Shown: one piece after another, positions 33,859-45,783 of the stretch
Layout of the letters: each line of letters starts with the position of its first letter
Numbering within the stretch: the first letter of the stretch is position 1
From: Anaerolineae bacterium
GTDB lineage: Bacteria; Chloroflexota; Anaerolineae; B4-G1; SLSP01
Assembly (NCBI GenBank): GCA_026991395.1
Contig: JALXBP010000108.1
Span: 1-45,783 of the forward strand
Direction of reading: 5' to 3'
Length of the DNA stretch: 45,783 nucleotides
Notes under the pieces: model-generated
Told to the model about the DNA's origin: nothing
Seen by the model: only the letters and a program-made list of their open reading frames with translations
The model's database searches: none
Position numbers and translations under genes: made by a program

Positions 33859-34857
33859 TCACACCAGCGCCAGCGCAACACCGGCCATCGCCGCCAGCAG
33901 GCCGACCAGCCAGAAGCGCTGCACGACCTGCGTCTCCGACCATCCCAGCAACTCGAAGTGGTGGTGCAACGGCGTCATCTTGAAGATGCGCCGACCCTCG
34001 CCGTACTTCCGCTTCGTGTACTTGAAGTAGCTCACCTGGATGATGACCGACAGCGTCTCCGCCACCGGCACGAGCATCACCACCGGCAGGATGAGCCATT
34101 GCCCGGTCATCAGCGCGACGACGCCCAACGTCGCCCCCAACGCCAGCGAGCCGGTATCGCCCATGAAAAGCTCCGCCGGATGGGCGTTGTACCAGAGGAA
34201 GGCGAAGGATGCGCCCACGACGGTGAAGCAGAAGCGCACCAGGTAGATCTGCCCCTGCAACTCGGCGATGACGCCGTAGGCAGCGAAGGCGCTCGCCATC
34301 AGGATGCCTGCCAGCCCGTCCAGCCCGTCGGTGAGATTGGCGGCGTTGGCCGAGCCGATGACGACGAACATCGCCACGGGGATGTAGAACAGGCCGATGT
34401 CGATCTTCTCCGCCAGGCCAGGCACGGCGACACTGTGCAGCTTCATCCCCAGGTAGAGCACGAGGGCGACGGTGAAAGTCAGCAGCAACTCCACACGCAT
34501 CTTCAGCCCGGCGGAAAGCGCCTCCCCGCCGCGCACGCCGCGCACCCCCGCCAGGTCGTCGATCGCCCCCAGCACGGCGTAGATGACCATCACCCCCAGC
34601 GGGACGAGGATCGACTTGCCGATGACCGTCTGGCCGATCAGGTTGTAAACGTTCAGCGCCAAGGTGATGAGCAGCACCGGCACGGTAATGAGAACCCCGC
34701 CCATCGTCGGCGTGCCCATCTTGACGAAATGGCCGTGCGGCCCATCGACGCGAATCCGCTTGCCGATCTTCCACCGCCGCAGGAGCGCGATGTAGGGCCG
34801 TCCCCAAAAGACGACCATCAGGAACGAGATGCTGGCCAGAATCAGCGCGAAACCCAC
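33859..34857 (-). CDS. mraY: Phospho-N-acetylmuramoyl-pentapeptide-transferase
   Basis: This 332-residue integral membrane enzyme moves phospho-MurNAc-pentapeptide from UDP to undecaprenyl phosphate to make lipid I. About ten helices are seen. Signature blocks are KMGTPTMGGVLI (46-57), the aspartates in GAIDDLAG, SANAANLTDGLDGLA, FMGDTGSLALG and the PLHHHFE loop. The start is a GTG at 34857, one base after the murF stop. The family is widely conserved and the active site looks complete. Confidence 0.97.
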   Translation of the reverse strand: MGFALILASISFLMVVFWGRPYIALLRRWKIGKRIRVDGPHGHFVKMGTPTMGGVLITVPVLLITLALNVYNLIGQTVIGKSILVPLGVMVIYAVLGAIDDLAGVRGVRGGEALSAGLKMRVELLLTFTVALVLYLGMKLHSVAVPGLAEKIDIGLFYIPVAMFVVIGSANAANLTDGLDGLAGILMASAFAAYGVIAELQGQIYLVRFCFTVVGASFAFLWYNAHPAELFMGDTGSLALGATLGVVALMTGQWLILPVVMLVPVAETLSVIIQVSYFKYTKRKYGEGRRIFKMTPLHHHFELLGWSETQVVQRFWLVGLLAAMAGVALALV

Positions 34858-34858
34858 G

Positions 34859-36277
34859 TCAAGCTCCCGTCAGCGCCGCGACGATGCGATCCATATGCAG
34901 GGCGTGCGAACCCTTGACCAGGATGACATCCCCCGGCTGCAAGATTTCCCGCAGCAAAGCCACCGCCTCCTCCGGCGAAGCCACCTCGGTGATCCGATGC
35001 GCCGCCATGCCGCACAGCCGCGCCCCGCGTCCCAGCAGATGCGCCCGCGCTCCGACGGCAATGAGGCGATCGGCGACATCCGCCGCGCGGCAGCCCACCT
35101 TCAGATGGCCCTCCTCCTCGTAACGCCCCAGCTCCAGCATATCGCCGAGCACGGCGATCTTGCGCCCGCCCTCCAGTTCCTCCAGCACGTTCAGCGCGGC
35201 CAGCGCGGAAGGCGGACTGGCGTTGTAGGTATCGTCCAGGATGAGCGTCCCGTGCGGCCCGCGGACGGCCACCAGCCGCAACTGCGCGTGATTTTCACGC
35301 AGCCCCTTGGCGATCTCCTCCCAGCCAAGCCCCTCGATGAGCGCTACCGCCGCCGCCCGCAGCACCGTGTGGACGCTGTGGCGACCGAGAAGAGGCGCGC
35401 GCAGGTAGACGGCCTCGTCGCCGTAGTGCAGGCGGAAGCGAATCCCCTCCAGGCCGAGACTTTCCACCTCGTCGGCCCAGAGATCGGCCTGGGGCGTCAG
35501 TCCGTAGAAGAAGGGCCGCGCCGCCGTGTGCCCGGCCATCGCCCGCACGCGCGGATCGTCGGCATTGAGCACGGCCACGCCCTCCGGCGCGGGGGGAAGC
35601 GCCTCGACCAGTTCACGCTTGGCCAACGCGATCGCCTCCAGACTGCCCGCCCGCTCGGCGTGAACCGGCTCCACGTTGGTCACCACGCCGACCTGCGGCA
35701 GCGCCATCGCCGCCAGCTCTCGAATCTCGCCGCGGGTGTACATCCCCATCTCCAGCACCACGCGCTCGTGCGCCTCCGTCAGGTGGAGGAGCGTCAGCGG
35801 CAGGCCAATCTCGTTATTCTGCGAGCCTTCCGTTTTGAGCACGCGGTAGCGCTGCGCCAGAAGCCGTGCCGTCGTCTCCTTCGTCGTCGTCTTGCCCACG
35901 CTGCCGGTGATGCCGATGACGCGCACATCGAACTGCCGCCGCCAGAATGCGGCAGCCCGCTGCATCGCCGCCAGCACGTCGTCCACGCGAAGGAGACAGG
36001 GCGGATCGGGAAAGGTCAGCGGGAGGCCCGTCCGCAGATCGACGAGCGGCACATCGAGATCGACCGCCTCGTCGATCACCGCCGCCACCGCGCCCCGCCG
36101 CAGCGCATCGCCGACGAAGGTGTGCCCGTCCACCTGCTCGCCGCGGAAGGCGAAGAAGACGGCACCCGCATCGGCCTGCCGCGAATCGATCACCGGATGA
36201 ACGGGCACCGTCCCCCCTGCCGGGCGCGCCCCGCTCATCCCCTCGACCAGATCGGCCAACGTCAACGCTCTCATCAT
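34859..36277 (-). CDS. murF: UDP-N-acetylmuramoyl-tripeptide--D-alanyl-D-alanine ligase
   Basis: This 472-residue Mur ligase adds the D-Ala-D-Ala dipeptide made by Ddl. DSRQADAGAVFFAFRG (31-46) is the N-terminal MurE/F signature, the P-loop GSVGKTT is at 125-131, LEMGMYTRGEI follows, and ILDDTYNASPPS near the C-terminus is typical of MurF and not of MurE. Two ATGs are adjacent (36277 and 36274); AGGAGG is closer to ideal spacing for the second. It begins six bases after ftsI, where murE would usually lie. Confidence 0.95.
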   Translation of the reverse strand: MMRALTLADLVEGMSGARPAGGTVPVHPVIDSRQADAGAVFFAFRGEQVDGHTFVGDALRRGAVAAVIDEAVDLDVPLVDLRTGLPLTFPDPPCLLRVDDVLAAMQRAAAFWRRQFDVRVIGITGSVGKTTTKETTARLLAQRYRVLKTEGSQNNEIGLPLTLLHLTEAHERVVLEMGMYTRGEIRELAAMALPQVGVVTNVEPVHAERAGSLEAIALAKRELVEALPPAPEGVAVLNADDPRVRAMAGHTAARPFFYGLTPQADLWADEVESLGLEGIRFRLHYGDEAVYLRAPLLGRHSVHTVLRAAAVALIEGLGWEEIAKGLRENHAQLRLVAVRGPHGTLILDDTYNASPPSALAALNVLEELEGGRKIAVLGDMLELGRYEEEGHLKVGCRAADVADRLIAVGARAHLLGRGARLCGMAAHRITEVASPEEAVALLREILQPGDVILVKGSHALHMDRIVAALTGA

Positions 36278-36283
36278 CGCCTC

Positions 36284-38026
36284 CTACGGCCCCTCCGCCG
36301 CCTCCGAGGGCGGGATGTGGAGCAGTGTGAAGAGCCGCGAAGCGACACGCCGGAAGACTGGAGCTGCTGTCGTCGAACCCCAGCGCATCTCCGGCGGCAC
36401 GTGCGGGCGATCCAGCTTGACGAAGACGAGCAACTGCGGGTCGGGGATCGGCCCAAAGCCGACGAAAGAGGCGACGATCGCCTCCGGATCGTAGCCGCCC
36501 TCGACCGGAATCTGCGCCGTCCCCGTCTTGCCCGCGATGCGGTAGCCGGGGACCTGCGCCTGCGGCACCTCCCGCTCCACCGCCCGCGCCATCAACGTCC
36601 ACATCGTCCGCGCCGTCCGCGCCGAGATGGGACGGCCCGCCTCGCGGGGGAGGATGGGGACCACCCGCCCGTCGGGATAGCGGCGCTCGGCGACGACGTA
36701 GGGCGTCATCAGCCGCCCGTCGTTGGCGATGGCCGCCACCGCCGTCGCCATCTGCAGCGGCGTTACGGCGATGCCCTGCCCGAAGGCGTTGGTCGCCAGG
36801 TCCGAATCCTTCCACTGCCAGTCCCCCGGCACGCGGAGGATGCCCGGCGCCTCCTCCATCAGCTCGATCCCCGTCGTCTGCCCAAAGCCGAAAGCGCGCA
36901 CGTAATCGTAGAAACGCTCCGCGCCCAGCGCCTGCGTCGCCAGCGTCGCCGCCCCCACGTTGAGCGAATGGGCCAGCAGCCCCTCCAAATCCTGCTGCCC
37001 GTAGGCGCGGCGATCCCAGTTGTACACGCGAATGCCGCCGTAATCCAGGTAGCCGCGGTCTTCGTAGCTCCAATCCAAGTCGGCGACGCCCGCATCCAGC
37101 GCCGCCGCCACGGTTACCAACTTGAAGACCGACCCCGGCTCGTAGGCCAGGCTGATGGCCGGATCGAGGAAGAGCGAAGTCTCATCCTCCTTGGCGTAGC
37201 TGGCGTAGTGCTCCGGTTCGTACACCGGACGGCTGGCCATAGCCAGGATCGCACCGGTGCGCGGATCCATCACGATGATCGTCCCGCTCTCGGCGCTGTA
37301 GTCGTGCAGCGCCTTGTCCAGCTCCCCCTCGACGAAGGCCTGAATCGTGCGGTCGATCGTCAGCCGCAGCGTCGTGCCCGGATAGGGCATCGTGAAGCCG
37401 GAGACCGCCTCCTCCGGCATCGGCGCGGAGGAGCCGGTAACCTCCCCCATCTGCACGACCCTTTCGCCGCGCAGCAGGCGCTGCTCGTAGGCCAGCAAGC
37501 CGTAGCCGTCGCCCTCTGCGTTGACGAAGCCGAGCAGGTGGGCGGCCAGATGGCCCTCCGGGTAGACCCGCCGCCAGGAGGGCGTCAGCGTCAGCCACGG
37601 CAGGTGGAGCGCCGAGAGCGCCTCCGCATCGGCCTGCGAAATCCCCTGCGCCAGGGGATGCCAGACGAAGGTGCGGTTCTGCTCCTCCGGGCGCAGCGTC
37701 AGCGCCGCGACGATCTCCCCCACAGGCCGGTGGAGGTGAGGAGCCAGGCGCTCCGCCGCGGCGACGGGATCGCCGATCATCTCCACCTCCGCCCCCACAT
37801 CGAAGACCGGCTGATTGCCGACGAGGAGATCGCCGTTGCGGTCGGTAACCAGCCCCCACGGCGGAGAAGGCAGGGCGTAGTAACGCTCGACGAGTGCCCG
37901 CGCTTCCTGCGCATAGGCCGGGTGCTCCAGAAGCTGGATGCGGACCAACTGCATCACCAGCAGCATCAAGACGACGATGAGCAGGAAGGTGATGAAGCGC
38001 ACCCGCGCCTCGGGACCGCGCATCAT
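36284..38026 (-). CDS. ftsI: Septal penicillin-binding protein FtsI/PBP2-class transpeptidase
   Basis: This 580-residue class B penicillin-binding protein cross-links septal peptidoglycan. An N-terminal membrane anchor (about 10-30) is followed by the dimerisation domain (GLVTDRNGDLLVGN, then WRRVYPEGHLAAHLLGFVN) and the transpeptidase domain with SVFK (Ser299, Lys302), SLN (354-356) and KTG (500-502). No PASTA repeats follow. The start overlaps the FtsL-like stop by four bases. Its partner is FtsW, encoded in the same operon. The position and motifs support FtsI over an elongasome PBP2. Confidence 0.94.
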   Translation of the reverse strand: MMRGPEARVRFITFLLIVVLMLLVMQLVRIQLLEHPAYAQEARALVERYYALPSPPWGLVTDRNGDLLVGNQPVFDVGAEVEMIGDPVAAAERLAPHLHRPVGEIVAALTLRPEEQNRTFVWHPLAQGISQADAEALSALHLPWLTLTPSWRRVYPEGHLAAHLLGFVNAEGDGYGLLAYEQRLLRGERVVQMGEVTGSSAPMPEEAVSGFTMPYPGTTLRLTIDRTIQAFVEGELDKALHDYSAESGTIIVMDPRTGAILAMASRPVYEPEHYASYAKEDETSLFLDPAISLAYEPGSVFKLVTVAAALDAGVADLDWSYEDRGYLDYGGIRVYNWDRRAYGQQDLEGLLAHSLNVGAATLATQALGAERFYDYVRAFGFGQTTGIELMEEAPGILRVPGDWQWKDSDLATNAFGQGIAVTPLQMATAVAAIANDGRLMTPYVVAERRYPDGRVVPILPREAGRPISARTARTMWTLMARAVEREVPQAQVPGYRIAGKTGTAQIPVEGGYDPEAIVASFVGFGPIPDPQLLVFVKLDRPHVPPEMRWGSTTAAPVFRRVASRLFTLLHIPPSEAAEGP

Positions 38027-38361
38027 CGCTCGCCCCCTTCTTCATCGAGGCGGACGAAGTCCACCTCCTCCGCGGGCACGAAGCCCAGGGCCAGCGAACG
38101 CTCCTGCAGGCGGGGGATGGCGCTCTGCCGGGCGATCTCCACACGCAGCGCCTCGTTGACGCGCTCCTGCGTCATCACCGCCTCGCCGACCTTCCAAATC
38201 TGCCGCGCCAGGCGGACATTGGAGGCCACCAGCGTCAGGTAGGCGAGGATGAGCAGCGTAACGACCAGCGTCAACGCGACGATGGCGATGGCCACCGTCC
38301 GCTCCCATTGCCGCCTGCGGCGGGGAACGCCGTGCGTTCGCTTCTGCCAAAGGACACTCAT
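38023..38361 (-). CDS. ftsL: FtsL/DivIC-like bitopic division protein
   Basis: This 112-residue protein has a basic N-terminus, one membrane helix (about 23-46) and a periplasmic helix likely to form a coiled coil ([18 protein letters not shown]). Sequence identity in FtsL is low, so the call rests on topology, size and position between rsmH and ftsI, where ftsL normally lies. It overlaps both neighbours by four bases (ATGA at each end). It would form a complex with FtsQ and help activate FtsWI. Confidence 0.75.
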
Positions 38362-39308
38362 CGTCCGCTACCCTCCACCTTCTCGACTACACGCAATTTC
38401 GCGCTGCGACTGCGCCGATTGACCTCCCGCTCCTCCGCCGAGGGCACGATCGGCTTGCGCGTTACCCATCGCACCCGCGGCGATGCCGCCTCCGCGAGCG
38501 GCAACGGCGAGGGCACGGCCTTCCGCCCCGCCCAGCGCCGAAAAGTCCGCTTGACGATGCGATCCTCCAGCGAATGGAAGGTGATCACCGCCAATCGCCC
38601 CCCCGGTCTCAGCAATTCGAGTGCCTGCGGCAAAACGGCCTCCAGCGCCTCCAGTTCCCGGTTGACAGCAATGCGCAACGCCTGGAACGTGCGCGTCGCC
38701 GGATGGATGCGCCCGCGGCGCGGCACCACCCGCTCGATGAGGGCGGCCAACTCGCCCGTCGTCCGCAGAGGCCGGGCGGCAACGATGGCACGGGCGATCA
38801 CGCGACTGTGGCGCTCCTCGCCGTAGCGCCACAGGAGCCGCGCCAGAGCCTCCGCATCCAACTCGTTCACCAGGTCGGCGGCCGTCGTCCCGCCCCCCTG
38901 CGGATCGTAGCGCATATCCAGCGGCCCATCCAGGCGGAAGGCGAAGCCGCGCTGCGCATCGTCGATCTGCAGGGAGGAGTAGCCCAGGTCGAGGAGGATG
39001 CCGTCCACCTCGACAAAGCCCTCCGCCCTCGCCAAGCGCCCCATCTCCGCATACGAGGCTTGCCGCAACCGGCAGCGCTCACCGAAGCGGGAGAGCCGTC
39101 GCTCGGCGTAAGCCACGGCCTGCGGATCGCGGTCCAGGCCGAGCAAGCGCCCCGTCGGCGCGGAGGCGAGCAGGATAGCCTCCGCGTGGCCGCCGCCCCC
39201 GACGGTTCCATCGATGTAAAGGCCGCCCTCACGCACGGCGAGGGCCGTCAGCACCTCCTGCAGGAGGACGGGACGATGCCCTCCCCTCAGATCTGCAGAT
39301 TCTCCCAC
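38358..39308 (-). CDS. rsmH: 16S rRNA (cytosine1402-N4)-methyltransferase RsmH
   Basis: This 316-residue SAM-dependent methyltransferase modifies C1402 of 16S rRNA. Motifs are [10 protein letters not shown] near the start, the SAM loop [37 protein letters not shown] and the C-terminal [12 protein letters not shown] with the [10 protein letters not shown] end. No ATG exists near the conserved N-terminus. A GTG at 39308 is chosen because GGAGGAGG lies ten bases upstream; it overlaps the mraZ 3' end by 22 bases. The stop overlaps the FtsL-like start. Confidence 0.93.
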
Positions 39309-39721
39309 AGCGAAGGGTCCTCCTCCATCAGGGCCATCTGACGGGCATTTTCCTCCGCCCATCGCTGGGGGTGCCAGAGTTCGATGAAATGATCGAGGCC
39401 GACGACGACGACATCCCGCTCCAGCCCGGCGTAGGCACGCAGCCGCTCCGGCAGGAGGAGCCGCCCCTGGCGATCGAGGGCCGCATCCACGGCATCGGCG
39501 AAGAGGAGACGGCGCAGCGCCCGCCCCTTGGGGTCGGTGATGGGCAGGGCATTGACTTTGGCCGCGATCTCCTGCCACACGGAGATGGGATAGACGGTCA
39601 GACAACGATCCAGCCCGCGGGTAACGACGACCTTTTCCCCCTCCAGGGCCTTGCGGAAGGCGGCGGGGATCGTTACGCGCCCTTTGCCGTCCAAAGTGTA
39701 ACTGTACTGCCCCAGGAACAT
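39287..39721 (-). CDS. mraZ: Transcriptional regulator MraZ
   Basis: This 144-residue protein has two AbrB/SpoVT-like swapped-hairpin domains. The first has [19 protein letters not shown] (8-26); the second has [20 protein letters not shown] (about 81-100). MraZ rings bind tandem TGGG repeats upstream of their own operon and regulate it. Such repeats are present here at 39761-39797. It is the first gene of the dcw cluster. ATG at 39721 follows AGAGGAGG. Size and both DxxGR signatures are canonical. Confidence 0.97.
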
Positions 39722-39909: not shown

Positions 39910-40740
39910 TCAGTGAAACTCGATCTCGGCGATCTGGTCGAAGTCCCAGCTTTCCCACGGCTCCTGTTCTTCCGGTTCCGCCTCGGCCACGAGCGGGACC
40001 TCGCCTTCGCAGAAGGTGCGGTAGGGACAGAAGCGGCAGGAGCGCTCGTCTTCCACGCGCGGAAAGTCGGCTTCGCCGTCGGCGGCGGCGATCGCCGCAA
40101 GGAGGGTGCGGAGATCGGCCTCGTCGCGGGCGAAGTCGTCCCGCGTGTAGGGCAAGCGCCGCTCTGCAGGGACGGCGGCATACCAGTAGCGCATCGTGAT
40201 CGCCTCCGGCGCGAAGGGCCGCCCGCCGTTCAGTTCCGCCCCGGCACGGACGAGGAGGTAGCGGTAGAGCCGCGTCTGCCATCGGCGGGCGAGGAGGCTG
40301 CGCTCCTCGGCGCGGGCATTCGTCTTCCAATCGACGATGGTCGCCGTCCCGTCCTCCCCCACCACGATGAGGTCGTAGCGGGCGATGAGCCGATGGCCGT
40401 CCAGCGTCGCGCCGAGCCGCAGTTCCACGTAGCGGCGACCGCTCAGGTCGGCGAAGGGCGCTTCGCGCAGATAGGTCGCCCAGAGAGCGGCCAGCGCCTC
40501 GTCGGCGTTGGCCTCGCGCTGCAGGACCGCCTCTGGCAGGCCGAGGAGGTGGCGCTGCACCAGGCGGTGAAAGCGGCTCCCCAACGTCATCCGCCGTTCG
40601 TGCGCCCCCATCGCACGGGGCGGCGTGGGCCAGCGCAGGCGGCAGAGATAGCGCAGGTAGAAGCGGCGCGGGCAGGCGGTGTAATCCTCCAGCGCCTGCT
40701 GGGAAAAGCGAAAGCCTTCGGGCAGGCGACACTCACGCAT
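39910..40740 (-). CDS. Stand-alone Fe-S PD-(D/E)XK nuclease, AddB/Cas4-like
   Basis: This 276-residue nuclease has the RecB-family PD-(D/E)XK fold with an iron-sulfur staple. H58 (GSRFHRLVQ), E106, D123 and the core VDWKT (D137, K139) form the nuclease centre. C23 ([12 protein letters not shown]) and the C-terminal C235, C238, C244 ([10 protein letters not shown]) match the Fe-S pattern of AddB and Cas4 nucleases. An acidic tail follows. It starts eight bases inside the end of the helicase gene, so the two are one operon. It likely acts with that helicase in resecting DNA ends. No cas genes are present, so Cas4 is rejected. Confidence 0.85.
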
Positions 40741-43000
40741 CGGCTCGCTCCTTTCGATAGCGGATCAGCGCCTCCAGACCGCGGGCCGGTCGGCTCGCGC
40801 CCTTCCGCCCGCTGTTCCAGGTGATGATCAACTCGCGGCGGGCGCGTGTGATGCCCACGTAGAGCAGACGGAGGCGCTCGGCGGCATAATCCAGGCGGGC
40901 CTGCCGCGTGGCCTCCCCCTCCACGTAGAGGAAAGGCTCATCCGCCTGCTGCGGGAGTGCTTCGAGCTGGGCAAGCACCTCCGCCTGCAGGTTCAGGCCG
41001 TCGCGCACGAACCAGCGCTCGGCGACGAAGGAATCACCGTCCGCCTCCAGCGCAGAGGGGTAGTTGTAGCTGTTGACGGAGAGCAGGTAGACGCGGTCCC
41101 ATTCCAGCCCCTTCGCCTTGTGGATGGTGGCGACCACCACCTCCCCCGGATGGCGGTCGGGGTCGAAGCCGAGGTCGTCCTCCCCAAAGCCCACGAGGGT
41201 GCGGCGGCTGCGGGCGATCTGCTCCAGTTCGGCGCGGAAGTCGGAGAAGCGGAAATCGGGGTGGAGATCGGCGTAGCCGCGCAGCGTGAGGGCGACCTTG
41301 TGCACCAGCGCCAAGTCGGCGGCATCGCGGAAGATGTCCTGCGCCGCCGTGAGCAGGAGTTGATCGATGGGCAGCGCCGCCGCTTCCAGCCAGCGCCGCG
41401 CCACCTCGCGGAAGGCCGTCAGGTGCTCCTGCGCCGCCGGGGAAAGCTCGTGCTGCTCCAGCCAGTCCTCCGTCAGCGGAGCGAGGAAACTTTCCGGCGT
41501 GCGGAGACGGCCCAGCAGCGCGGCGACCTTGTCGCGATCGGCGGCCTCCGGCAGCGGATCGAGGCGTTCGGCCCACAGCCGATAGACCGCGGCCAGGCGC
41601 TGCGGCTCCTGCGGGCGTTCGAGGAAGGCGAGCAAGGCCCCCAGCGCCTTCACGATCGCCCGCGTGCTGTGCGTCGTCTTGAGCAGTTCGACGACAGGCA
41701 GACCGCGCTGCCGCAGTGCCTCCACCATCTTCGCCCCGCGGTCGTTGCGCGGCACGAGGACGGCGACCGTCGCCTGCGGGTGCTCCGGCAGCCAGCGGGC
41801 CAGCGACCTCGCGACGGCTTCGATCTCCTCCTGCGGGCGATAGGCCCGCTCGCTCAGGTGGACGAAGCTCAGCGAATCCGGCGGGTTGGGCTGCGGGTCT
41901 CCCGGCGGCGTCGGCTCGATGAAGGGCGGCTGCAACGCCTCGCGCACTGCCTCGACCGGATGCTCCTCCATCGTCCAGCGGATCAGCTCGTTCGCCAGGC
42001 CGATGATCGTCAGCGTCGAGCGACCGGAGTTGGGCAGATCGGCGGCCATCACCCCCTCTTCCCGGAGGAAGTCCCGCAGGAAGCGCGGGTTGGCCGTCGT
42101 GAAGGTCTCGTAGATCGCCTGATTGGGATCGCCAACGCGCACCCAGTTCCCCTCAGGCCCGGCGAGGAGGCAAAGAAGCGCCTCCTGCAGGCGGCTGCTG
42201 TCCTGCGCCTCGTCCTCGAGGATGTAGGGCCAGCGGTGGCGCAGGCGGCGGAGCAGCCCCTCGTCCTGGCGCAGAAGCTGCATCGCCAGCCGCATCAGGT
42301 CGCTGAAGTCCACCGCGCCGCGATGGTGCAGGGCACGCTGGTAATCCGCATACACCTCCGCGGCCATACGGAGCAGGAAAGCCTCGCGACCGGGCGGCAG
42401 GTAGTCCAGCCGACGGAGCAGATGCTGAGGCGTCAACTCCAGGTCCTTGGCCTGTTTGATGAAGGGCAGCACGATGTCGTTGCGCAGGATGGCGGGCCAC
42501 TCATTGCGCCGAATGCTCTGCGCTCTGGATTCGCTCAGATCGGTGCGCAGGAAGTCGTCGGCCAGGGCATCCTCGTGCTCGCGCAGCCAGAGGTCCAGCA
42601 CGTCGCGAAGGATGCGCCCCGCCTCGCCCTCATCGACGATCTCGAAGGTGCGGCCCAGGTTGAGCCGCGCCGGATTCTCGCGCACGATGTCGTGACAGAG
42701 ACCGTGCAGCGTGCGCACACGGTAGCCGACGCCCTCCAGCAGGTCGTAGCGCTGACCGAGGAAGCGGGCGACGCGGGCGGCGAAGTTCTCCACCGCCGAG
42801 TTCACCAGGGTGACGATGAGCACCTCCTGATCGTCCTCCAGCCCGCCCTCGGCGATGAGGCGGGCGGCGAGGAAGGAGAGCGTCCACGTCTTCCCGCTCC
42901 CCGGCACCGCGGCGACCCCCATACGCCCGCGGCGATAGCCGAGCACGATCCGCTGCTTGGGCCGCGGTCGAAAGGTAGCGAAACGCTCATCATCCGGCAT
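40733..43000 (-). CDS. UvrD/AddA-like SF1A DNA helicase without nuclease domain
   Basis: This 755-residue ATP-dependent 3'-5' helicase of the UvrD/Rep/AddA superfamily unwinds DNA. Q-motif FRPRPKQRIV and Walker A GSGKT (34-38) open it, motif II is DEAQD (263-267), motif III GDPNQAIY (290-297), ATIHKAKGLEWDRVYLL is motif V, and VGITRARREL is motif VI. All are intact. The chain ends soon after motif VI without a nuclease domain, which is instead the next gene (8-base overlap). ATG at 43000 follows AGGAGGG. The 2A domain is less conserved than in PcrA, so UvrD housekeeping function is not assumed. The stop overlaps the nuclease start. Confidence 0.9.
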   Translation of the reverse strand: MPDDERFATFRPRPKQRIVLGYRRGRMGVAAVPGSGKTWTLSFLAARLIAEGGLEDDQEVLIVTLVNSAVENFAARVARFLGQRYDLLEGVGYRVRTLHGLCHDIVRENPARLNLGRTFEIVDEGEAGRILRDVLDLWLREHEDALADDFLRTDLSESRAQSIRRNEWPAILRNDIVLPFIKQAKDLELTPQHLLRRLDYLPPGREAFLLRMAAEVYADYQRALHHRGAVDFSDLMRLAMQLLRQDEGLLRRLRHRWPYILEDEAQDSSRLQEALLCLLAGPEGNWVRVGDPNQAIYETFTTANPRFLRDFLREEGVMAADLPNSGRSTLTIIGLANELIRWTMEEHPVEAVREALQPPFIEPTPPGDPQPNPPDSLSFVHLSERAYRPQEEIEAVARSLARWLPEHPQATVAVLVPRNDRGAKMVEALRQRGLPVVELLKTTHSTRAIVKALGALLAFLERPQEPQRLAAVYRLWAERLDPLPEAADRDKVAALLGRLRTPESFLAPLTEDWLEQHELSPAAQEHLTAFREVARRWLEAAALPIDQLLLTAAQDIFRDAADLALVHKVALTLRGYADLHPDFRFSDFRAELEQIARSRRTLVGFGEDDLGFDPDRHPGEVVVATIHKAKGLEWDRVYLLSVNSYNYPSALEADGDSFVAERWFVRDGLNLQAEVLAQLEALPQQADEPFLYVEGEATRQARLDYAAERLRLLYVGITRARRELIITWNSGRKGASRPARGLEALIRYRKERADA

Positions 43001-43019
43001 AATCCCTCCTCATCGGGTG

Positions 43020-43046
43020 ATTATATTCGCAAGCAGAACGTTGCAA
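43020..43046 (-). promoter_or_regulatory. Possible promoter of the helicase-nuclease unit
   Basis: On the minus strand TTGCAA (43046-43041), a short 15-base spacer and TATAAT (43025-43020) lie 20 bases before the helicase ATG. The -10 box is perfect but the spacing is below the usual 16-18. No equally good promoter is seen for the divergent PLD gene in 43001-43146. Confidence 0.5.
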
Positions 43047-43146
43047 CGAACACACTATGCCGCAGGGAGAATCATGGTATGCTTGTCGCGTCTTTGGCTA
43101 TTCCTGCACAACTCATCGCTACAGTTCACTTACAAGGAGAGCTAAT

Positions 43147-43911
43147 ATGGCACGCTTCCTGAACACGAGTGCGCTCAACTACGGATTGGAAAAGTTAATC
43201 ATCCAGGCACGCAAACGAATCGTACTCATTAGCCCCTATCTAAAGTTCCACGAGCGTATCAAAAGCCTCTTGGCCACTCGTGACAAGGAAGGCGTGCAGA
43301 TTGAAGTTATCTATGGCAAACGTGAGCTTGCCCCACAGACAGCGGCATGGCTTCGCTCCCTTGAACACGTGCGCGTCTCCTTCTGTCAAAACCTCCATGC
43401 CAAATGTTACATCTTTGACAACCAAGCGGCCATCTTGACCTCGATGAACCTCTACGAATACAGCCAAGTGAACAATTACGAGATGGGTATCCTTGTCCTG
43501 GCCTCCTCATCATCACTCTCACTGCAGGAAGATGGACAGCTTTTAGCGAGTATTCTGCAAGAAGTCGAACTCATCCGCCAAGCCAGTACGGTGATGTTGG
43601 CACCAGCAGAGAGCATCGATCACTTTTCCACAGCCGCTCCGTCCAAAGAAAAGGAACAGCCCCCTTCCCGCCCCTCCCGGAAGTCAACGGCACCTTCATC
43701 CCGCTACAACAAGTTGACCACATATCGGCTCGCCCAAGCCAGGAATACGACAAAACCGGCACTGCTGCAACGCCTCGCAAAGCTCGGCTACATCCGCAAA
43801 CAGGGCAAGGACTGGACATTAACGGCCAAGGGCAAGCAAATCGGCGGCGAGATGCGCTCAGGCAAAGATGGCTCGACGTTCTTCCTCTGGCCTCGTGATC
43901 TCGAACTCTGA
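43147..43911 (+). CDS. PLD-family phosphodiesterase/nuclease with likely C-terminal winged helix
   Basis: This 254-residue protein has a single phospholipase D-type half site: H84-A-K86 with D91 (HAKCYIFD, the HxKx4D motif) and ILTSMNLYEYSQVNNYEMGI after it, as in dimeric Nuc-type nucleases. A Ser/Pro-rich linker (about 185-212) leads to a C-terminal segment (YNKLTTYRLAQARN, LLQRLAKLGYIRKQ, WTLTAKGKQIGGE, FFLWPRDL) that looks like a winged-helix DNA-binding domain. ATG at 43147 follows AAGGAG. The gene is on the strand opposite its neighbours and its DNA is visibly AT-richer, with TTA and other codons rare around it, so it was probably acquired. Substrate is presumably DNA. Confidence 0.78.
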   Translation: MARFLNTSALNYGLEKLIIQARKRIVLISPYLKFHERIKSLLATRDKEGVQIEVIYGKRELAPQTAAWLRSLEHVRVSFCQNLHAKCYIFDNQAAILTSMNLYEYSQVNNYEMGILVLASSSSLSLQEDGQLLASILQEVELIRQASTVMLAPAESIDHFSTAAPSKEKEQPPSRPSRKSTAPSSRYNKLTTYRLAQARNTTKPALLQRLAKLGYIRKQGKDWTLTAKGKQIGGEMRSGKDGSTFFLWPRDLEL

Positions 43912-43941
43912 GCGCTCATCCTTTCAGCATATGCTGAAAGG
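43909..43941. repeat. Two adjacent perfect palindromes at a convergent gene end, possible bidirectional terminator
   Basis: TGAGCGCTCA (43909-43918) is a perfect 10-bp palindrome that contains the stop codons of both convergent genes, one per strand. Right next to it CCTTTCAGCATATGCTGAAAGG (43920-43941) is a perfect 22-bp palindrome that encodes the last residues of the AddB-like protein. It could fold as a hairpin in both transcripts; no T-run follows on either strand. Confidence 0.65.
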
Positions 43942-45783
43942 CCACCAGTAGCGGGCCGCGATCCTCGTAGCCGCGGGCATTGAGTCGGCTCAATCCCAGG
44001 TAGAGGCCGCGCCGACAGCGGAGCAGCAGGCCGCGGGTGATACGCGCCAGCGATGCCCGCCGCGAGGCGATCTCCTCCTCGTCCGTCCACAGGCGACCGC
44101 TCTCCCAGCGGCGGCTGAGCACGTAGGGATGGGTCAGCGGCTGGTACGGGCGCTCCCACCAGCCGCGGCTTCCCACGTCCAGCCAGAACTGGTAATCGAC
44201 CGCCCGATTGCCCATCAGGAAAGTGTAGGCCGGGGCGATGAGGACGGCCTCCGCAGGCCGCGCCGTCCAAGGGAGCAGGTACTGCGCGGCGATCACCCCC
44301 GATTCGACCATCTGCAGGTAGGTCTTGCCCCACGGGGCCTCGTCGGGCAGGCCATCGACGACGGCGCGAAACTTCTGCGCCGATTCGATGAGCATCGCCG
44401 CCACGTAGGCCGCATCGTAGCGCCGGTAGAAGCCGAAGCCCTCGTGCGCGAGCAGTTCGTGGAAGAGCGCCTGGAAGAAGATGTCCAGGGGAGCCTCCCG
44501 CTCCTGCCATTCGTCGAGCCAGAGAGCCACCTGCTGGTAGCGTTCACCCAGGCGATAGGTGATCCGCTCCTGCATCTCCGCCCCCATGCCGTCGAAATCC
44601 AGCAAGCGCCCCTGGCGATAACGCACCTCGGTCAGCAGGCGGGCGCGGACGAGGTCCAGTCCCTCGATGGCCTGCACTAACGTCCGCGCGACATCGTCGG
44701 CAGGCGGAGCCATCCCCCACTGCGGATGGGCCAACTGCGCCAGGGTGAGCATAGCCAGCGCCGCCGGTTCCTCGCGCAGCGAGCGGGAGGGGCGGTGCGT
44801 GTAGGCGGGAATCCCCCGCGCCCGCAGGCGGTCGAGCAGCGAGAAGCGGAGCAGGTCGTTGAGGTAGGGCGCGAGGACGGCGATCTCCGAAGGCTGGACG
44901 CCGCGTTCGATCAGCGCGGCGATCTCCCCGGCGACCCAGTCGAGCATCTGCGGATAGTAGGCGGGCGTCTCGCGCGGGCGATGGAGCGCCGGGCGCAGCG
45001 CCTCCCTGCGCGAGGCGGAACGCGGCCCGCCCTCGATGGCCGCGCCCAGCGCGTCGGTCAGCGCCAGCACGGCAGGGGAGGGATGACGCGGCTGCTCGAA
45101 GCGGAAAGTCCGCTCACAGAGCGCCTCCAGCGACGCGCCGCCCTGCGGGTCGGCACCGAGGAAGAGCCGATAGCCACCCTCCTCGTCATCGATGAGCAGC
45201 GCCGACTGCAACTGCGGCAGCCATTCCCGCAGGAGATCGTGCGCCAGCGGCGTCTGCTCCTCCACGTTGTCGGCGATGAGATGGCGGTAGCGGCTAAAGA
45301 GGTAGTCGCGGAAGGCGGGCTGCGGCCAGAGGGCCGTTCGCAGCAGTTCCATCTGCAGCGAGAAGTCGAGCAGGTTGTGCTCCAGGCAGTAGGCGCGGAA
45401 GCGATTGACGGCCTCCTGCACCTGCCGATAGACCGTCTCCTGCGCCCTCTCCCCCGTCCAGGCGGCCATCAGCCGCTCGCCGATCTCGGTGTGCGGATAG
45501 CCGTTGACCGCCGCCTTGCTCAGGGCATCGAGAAGCTGGGCGTAGATGCGCTGCGGGCGGACGGTAACCGTATCGAAGAAGCCCTGCCGCATCCGCAGCG
45601 GTTCGACGACGCGGGCCATGAAGTACTGCGCCGTCTCCATCGTCAGGAAGCGCGGCGGCACTTCGGGATGGGCGAAGCCCGCCGCCTCGGCCACCAGCGG
45701 CCAGAAGAGATCGACCATCCGCCGCGCCAGCCCGCCCACGGTGAGCACGGTTACCTCGCCCCCGGCAGGGATCTGCGGACTGC
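43916..45783 (-). CDS. AddB/RecB-like helicase-fold protein, N-terminus beyond the window, degenerate Walker B
   Basis: More than 620 residues are visible; the frame is open to the window end, so the GTG at 45748 is internal and the Walker A region, if any, lies outside. TVLTVGGLARRMVDLFWP resembles motif Ia of UvrD/AddB proteins. The motif II region reads LIADNVEEQTP (157-167 counted from the 45748 GTG) instead of a DExQD box. LFLGADPQGG stands for motif III. The C-terminal RCRRGLYLGLSRLNARGYE resembles motif VI. No C-terminal nuclease or cysteine cluster is present. It probably is an AddB-like partner of the helicase and nuclease downstream on the same strand, from which the PLD gene separates it. 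Family is inferred. Confidence 0.65.
   Translation of the reverse strand, partial: SPQIPAGGEVTVLTVGGLARRMVDLFWPLVAEAAGFAHPEVPPRFLTMETAQYFMARVVEPLRMRQGFFDTVTVRPQRIYAQLLDALSKAAVNGYPHTEIGERLMAAWTGERAQETVYRQVQEAVNRFRAYCLEHNLLDFSLQMELLRTALWPQPAFRDYLFSRYRHLIADNVEEQTPLAHDLLREWLPQLQSALLIDDEEGGYRLFLGADPQGGASLEALCERTFRFEQPRHPSPAVLALTDALGAAIEGGPRSASRREALRPALHRPRETPAYYPQMLDWVAGEIAALIERGVQPSEIAVLAPYLNDLLRFSLLDRLRARGIPAYTHRPSRSLREEPAALAMLTLAQLAHPQWGMAPPADDVARTLVQAIEGLDLVRARLLTEVRYRQGRLLDFDGMGAEMQERITYRLGERYQQVALWLDEWQEREAPLDIFFQALFHELLAHEGFGFYRRYDAAYVAAMLIESAQKFRAVVDGLPDEAPWGKTYLQMVESGVIAAQYLLPWTARPAEAVLIAPAYTFLMGNRAVDYQFWLDVGSRGWWERPYQPLTHPYVLSRRWESGRLWTDEEEIASRRASLARITRGLLLRCRRGLYLGLSRLNARGYEDRGPLLVAFQHMLKG

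Follow-up and report, generated by a model that had tools for sequence, protein, structure and literature searches.

A candidate three-chain relative of AddAB in Anaerolineae, with a predicted motor, a pseudo-helicase and a free nuclease encoded by separate genes

We analyzed a 45,783-nucleotide stretch of DNA, hereafter the window, which is the whole of contig JALXBP010000108.1 (C108) in the 2.46-Mb genome, rated 100% complete, of an Anaerolineae bacterium; named relatives belong to the Anaerolineae, Chloroflexota. Three genes on its minus strand are considered here: adb (43916..45783), assigned from profiles and a structure model as coding for an AddB-like pseudo-helicase; hel (40733..43000), coding for a predicted 755-residue SF1A helicase of the UvrD/AddA type without a nuclease domain; and nuc (39910..40740), coding for a predicted free PD-(D/E)XK nuclease of 276 residues with an AdnA/AddB-type Fe-S signature. 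Judged by sequence, these features are far beyond chance, since they recur at 50–60% identity over their full length in dozens of genomes. The hel and nuc genes overlap by 8 nt in this genome, and a Shine-Dalgarno-like AAAGGAG for nuc (40748..40754, minus strand) lies within the hel coding region. An apparent in-frame hel–nuc fusion at another locus (L063) proved spurious, having been produced by a stretch of N.

The adb gene lies 915 nt upstream of hel in the window, whereas the two genes touch in most relatives. The interval is occupied by a PLD/HTH gene on the opposite strand (43057–43911, plus strand), whose PLD-type product is DrmC-like according to PADLOC and NCBIfam, under the NCBIfam cut-off, and carries a winged-helix-like region at its C terminus; this gene was not among the recurrent neighbors of the trio loci in relatives, as determined by clustering of open reading frames. 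Downstream of nuc, the translations, read by eye, indicate a cell-wall and division cluster (33859–39721, minus strand) with mraZ, rsmH, ftsL-like, ftsI-like, murF and mraY genes. Unlike in relatives, recJ is absent downstream of nuc; it is found on another contig, C102, and C142 carries a further match.

The PF12705 match (E 1.8e-35) spans all of the 276 residues of Nuc. His58, Asp123, Asp137, Lys139, Gln155 and Tyr159 are invariant in the 34 aligned sequences and constitute a complete RecB-family active site, with Asp137 and Lys139 belonging to the equally invariant nuclease motif DWKT (40321..40332, minus strand). Four cysteines in the arrangement C-(n)-CxxC-(5)-C are putative ligands of an Fe-S cluster: Cys23 (40672..40674, minus strand), conserved in 34/34 sequences, and Cys235, Cys238 and Cys244 (CxxCx5C; 40009..40038, minus strand), conserved in 34/34, 34/34 and 33/34, respectively. 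The Nuc profile matched columns 797–1078 of the AddB nuclease domain, including the Fe-S cysteines, with an E value of 1.1e-11; its match to the AddA nuclease was far weaker (E 6.4e-5, 122 columns). The best structural match of the Nuc model (pLDDT 88) was residues 782–1039 of AdnA, with a Z score of 18.3 and an r.m.s. deviation of 2.8 on 223 residues; further matches were ACE1 (Z 15.9) and residues 783–1137 of AddB (Z 15.4). Sequence and model together thus identify Nuc as an AddB/AdnA-type Fe-S nuclease domain on its own chain. With 27.4 bits against a cut-off of 65, it fails the Cas4 equivalog TIGR00372.

The C terminus of Nuc carries a conserved peptide, seen in the tail alignment as 12 residues in the window (39913..39948, minus strand) and as a 10-residue consensus across the family. 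It stands behind a variable acidic linker, is found in Salinibacter too, and falls within a segment predicted to be disordered (residues 249–276, pLDDT < 50). The peptide looks like a docking tail, which could stand in for the lost covalent link.

Hel contains PF00580 (E 6.4e-45) and UvrD_C, and no nuclease domain was detected in it. The SF1A motifs I, II, III, V and VI are conserved in 29 aligned sequences. Profile comparison with hhalign aligned Hel with the helicase part of an Anaerolineae AddA over columns 13–869 (E 1.6e-34), while the nearest solved structures by sequence were UvrD/PcrA/Rep, then AddA, AdnB and RecB. On this sequence evidence, Hel appears to be an active-type SF1A motor of the AddA type. 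The initial annotation of this DNA had recognized a complete SF1 helicase devoid of a nuclease domain and, overlapping it, a stand-alone PD-(D/E)XK nuclease with the same cysteine pattern, and both readings are borne out.

The adb gene runs off the end of C108. The missing 67 residues, with the Walker A motif GPAGAGKTT, are encoded on contig C110 (locus L112). The two contig ends (45660–45783 of the window and the end of L112) share more than 120 identical bases inside adb, so C108 and C110 are probably adjacent in the genome. Joined across them, the complete protein has about 688 residues, of which the window encodes the C-terminal 621. The large UvrD-fold protein without a nuclease domain that the initial annotation had placed upstream on the same strand is therefore right in fold, strand and lack of a nuclease, but its reading frame was incomplete. 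Pfam is nearly blind to Adb (UvrD-helicase, E 0.044 for the window's protein, below cut-off), and single-sequence searches against solved structures returned nothing usable for either Adb or Nuc; the assignment of Adb relied on profiles and on a structure model. The family profile, a comparison suggested at the outset, matched AddB over columns 27–708 (E 1.6e-10), AddA over 220 columns (E 6.9e-8) and Hel (E 1.2e-6). The structure modelled for the homologue in Anaerolinea thermolimosa, with a pLDDT of 90, has a full UvrD fold without a nuclease domain. It gave its highest Z scores (about 29) with UvrD-type chains, over 454–583 aligned residues, and the chains it covered most completely were AdnB (residues 24–806; Z 25.4, 620 residues, r.m.s. 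deviation 4.5) and AddB (residues 2–696; Z 21.6, 606 residues, r.m.s. deviation 6.3).

The motif states of Adb are those of a degenerate helicase. The Walker A lysine is kept in 37/37 aligned sequences and the Walker B aspartate in 38/38, but the position of the catalytic glutamate of helicases is occupied by asparagine in 37 of 38 (DN for DE) and the glutamine of motif III is replaced by Ala or Gly (one Ser). Motifs V and VI were unrecognizable in the alignment, with no TRAR-type motif VI. Given this loss of catalytic residues, Adb would be a pseudo-helicase, like AddB. AddB and RecC likewise have helicase-like domains in which most of the motifs are missing and which serve to scan for Chi (PMC4824097). 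Profiles and model concur that Adb is an AddB-like pseudo-helicase, the counterpart of the helicase-like part of AddB, and it would bind ATP but is probably unable to hydrolyze it.

A survey of 150 genomes of the class found all three genes in 68, none in 68 and part of the set in 14, hence an all-or-none state in 136; these are raw counts that ignore phylogeny. Where pairs lie on one contig within 15 kb, they share a strand without exception (55/55 for adb–hel and 40/40 for hel–nuc), and the typical gaps between trio genes in relatives are -4 to -20 nt, overlaps of 4–17 nt being frequent. The trio usually forms a tight same-strand operon, and its members are co-retained even megabases apart: one genome (G067) keeps all of them unlinked on a single 4.0-Mb contig, with positions of about 0.2, 1.0 and 2.2 Mb. 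Several genomes, among them G041, G119, G138 and G083, have adjacent adb and hel genes and no recognizable nuc; at two such loci (L140 and L141, in G138 and G041) the nuclease may have disappeared, have been replaced or have diverged.

Clustering of the 1034 open reading frames of the loci yielded hel in 83 loci, adb in 65, nuc in 46 and recJ in 37, the next family reaching 12. RecJ is a 5'-to-3' single-strand exonuclease. Among the 46 loci whose downstream sequence was long enough, its gene starts no more than 200 nt behind nuc in 24 and no more than 3.5 kb behind it in a further 13, and it belongs to the unit as a fourth recurrent gene. Distance-matrix (mirror-tree) correlation was high for all trio pairs and equally high with the recJ control, which makes it uninformative.

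In the window's genome, exactly one PF12705 domain was found, that of Nuc, with no second, AddA-type nuclease; two UvrD helicases exceed the cut-off, namely Hel and a PcrA/UvrD-like protein, and no fused AddB was found. These counts, a check proposed in the initial annotation, revealed neither a classical AddAB nor a RecB in this genome. Across the class, 42 of the 150 genomes encode a fused AddB, 27 of them belonging to the 68 with the trio, and AddB–AddA pairs of about 1000–1200 residues per chain were read in five genomes. This overlap rules out the trio as a replacement of AddAB everywhere: it is not simply a substitute, and may have another job in those 27 genomes. The trio does not represent a broken AddAB and does not in every case replace AddAB. 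The proposal of a split AddAB-type system is supported, each chain having been assigned to a part of AddAB or AdnAB; it had missed recJ as the fourth gene, and the coexistence with fused AddAB sets a limit to it.

Textbook AddAB consists of two large fused proteins, both of which combine a helicase-type domain with a nuclease domain. Before Chi, the 3' strand is cut by the nuclease of AddA; that of AddB acts on the 5' strand, and the inactivated helicase domain of AddB scans for Chi (PMC4824097). At the level of sequence and models, the trio shares with AddAB (RexAB) an AddA-type motor, an AddB-type pseudo-helicase with Walker A and an Fe-S PD-(D/E)XK nuclease. Unlike AddAB, it comprises three chains instead of two, carries PF12705 only in Nuc and unattached, lacks the AddA nuclease domain and includes recJ in its operon. 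AdnAB of mycobacteria has two chains with a motor and a nuclease in each (PMC13309787). Its AdnA nuclease domain is the structure nearest to Nuc and AdnB aligns with Adb as described above, whereas the single nuclease of the trio has a chain of its own. RecBCD resembles the trio in its arrangement of a UvrD-fold motor and a pseudo-helicase and differs from it by its RecB with a fused nuclease, of which none was found in the window's genome.

The free nuclease also invites comparison with Cas4-like proteins. Cas4 and the Argonaute-associated Cas4, ACE1, have a free Fe-S nuclease fold as well, but Nuc is below the Cas4 equivalog cut-off and its partners are a helicase and a pseudo-helicase. UvrD and Cas4-like proteins, which likewise join an SF1 helicase to a PF12705 nuclease, occur as an unfused operon in several bacteria, mostly Clostridiales, and as fusions linked to restriction systems; unlike the trio, the pairs are described, in the accessible text of that report, with neither an AddB-like partner nor recJ (PMC5704561). 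In the trio, the helicase and the nuclease are separate genes without a restriction-modification context, the strongly recurrent families being only adb, hel, nuc and recJ. The parts of the trio are already known, and what seems new is their distribution over three chains, with one free Fe-S nuclease, the AddA nuclease lost and recJ in the operon. As the initial annotation had supposed, the three-chain layout seems to be new: we found no description of it in the open-access literature, which is not proof of absence.

We consider it likely that Adb, Hel and Nuc are the separate chains of one DNA-end-resection enzyme of the AddAB/AdnAB class, and extend this inference to their complex, its polarity, the docking of the tail and a role in recombination. 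This reading is based on the mapping of each chain onto a part of AddAB, the motif states, the operon, the co-occurrence and the co-retention of unlinked genes. Hel would be the sole motor, unwinding from the broken end in the 3'-to-5' direction, and Adb would replace the helicase-like part of AddB as the duplex-splitting, strand-scanning subunit. Nuc would represent the AddB/AdnA-type Fe-S nuclease freed from the chain, perhaps held via its C-terminal peptide. Since the AddA-type nuclease, which acts on the 3' strand, is absent, the enzyme should degrade the 5' strand only; a 3' overhang would then be left for RecA with no Chi switch needed. RecJ, encoded alongside in most loci examined, may assist. 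Against a single enzyme speak, in the window's genome, the separation of adb from hel by the opposite-strand gene and the location of recJ elsewhere and, in the class, the 27 trio genomes with a fused AddAB, the genomes with adjacent adb and hel but no recognizable nuc, and a mirror-tree correlation no better than with recJ.

An alternative that we regard as unlikely is a defense module, in which a UvrD-Cas4-like pairing of helicase and nuclease, assisted by Adb, degrades invading DNA and leaves housekeeping resection to AddAB or RecFOR. The fused AddAB of the 27 trio genomes would suit such a module, as would the patchy distribution of the trio (about half of the class), a copy of the operon on a Salinibacter plasmid and the tie of UvrD-Cas4 fusions to restriction systems (PMC5704561). 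Against it, recJ is the only strongly recurrent neighbor, and no restriction, CRISPR or other defense family is prominent in the flanks. Moreover, tblastn with Adb found no match in phage records, no viral contig encoding a relative of Adb turned up among 59 candidate stretches, and the window's genome shows no other enzyme of the AddAB/RecB class.

Somewhat less probable still is a set of independent proteins whose genes are co-transcribed only because all of them serve repair; Hel would then be a repair helicase like UvrD, Nuc an exonuclease of the Cas4/EXO5 type and Adb an ATPase that binds DNA. The proximity of Hel to UvrD/PcrA by sequence and the genomes with adb and hel but no nuc are compatible with this, and a complex of the three is itself inferred; yet the all-or-none pattern in 136/150 genomes holds even where the genes are unlinked, every chain corresponds to a part of one known complex, and the conserved tail of Nuc suggests a fixed partner. 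That frameshifts or gene fission recently broke up AddAB in a few lineages, as the correspondence of each chain to an AddAB fragment might suggest, is very improbable. The family is large and divergent, with 42–60% identity of Adb to the reference, yet it is intact and its conservation extends over many families. It coexists with fused AddB–AddA pairs as distinct genes and lacks the AddA nuclease, and its order adb–hel–nuc is not what cutting AddB–AddA in place would give.

More tentatively than the single end-resection enzyme itself, we put forward as a possibility that the trio defines a distinct bacterial end-resection class beside RecBCD, AddAB and AdnAB. Its enzyme would be a heterotrimer of a motor, a pseudo-helicase and a lone nuclease for the 5' strand, tethered by its tail; together with RecJ, it would produce 3' overhangs without Chi having to switch off a 3' nuclease. 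If this is true, the helicase–nuclease machines at the start of recombination can be assembled from unfused components, with a single nuclease, and the prediction follows that resection can dispense with Chi control where the enzyme has no nuclease for the 3' strand. Proteins annotated only as hypothetical, as helicase or as PD-(D/E)XK nuclease would also gain a function in a large class of environmental bacteria.

Among 301 Chloroflexota genomes sampled, strong Adb matches (E <= 1e-30) were confined to the class. The three genes, neighbors in most related genomes, are also together outside the phylum, on plasmid pSR56 of Salinibacter ruber M8 (Rhodothermota; L136, 8950–16833), which carries the operon adb–hel–nuc–recJ in that order, annotated as hypothetical, helicase, nuclease and recJ; its Adb, Hel and Nuc are 43, 44 and 38% identical to those of the window. 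A gene without partners in the listed neighborhood, on a plasmid of Ilyobacter polytropus (L137, 6004–7977), encodes a distant Adb-like UvrD-fold protein that is 22% identical to the query across 56% of its length.
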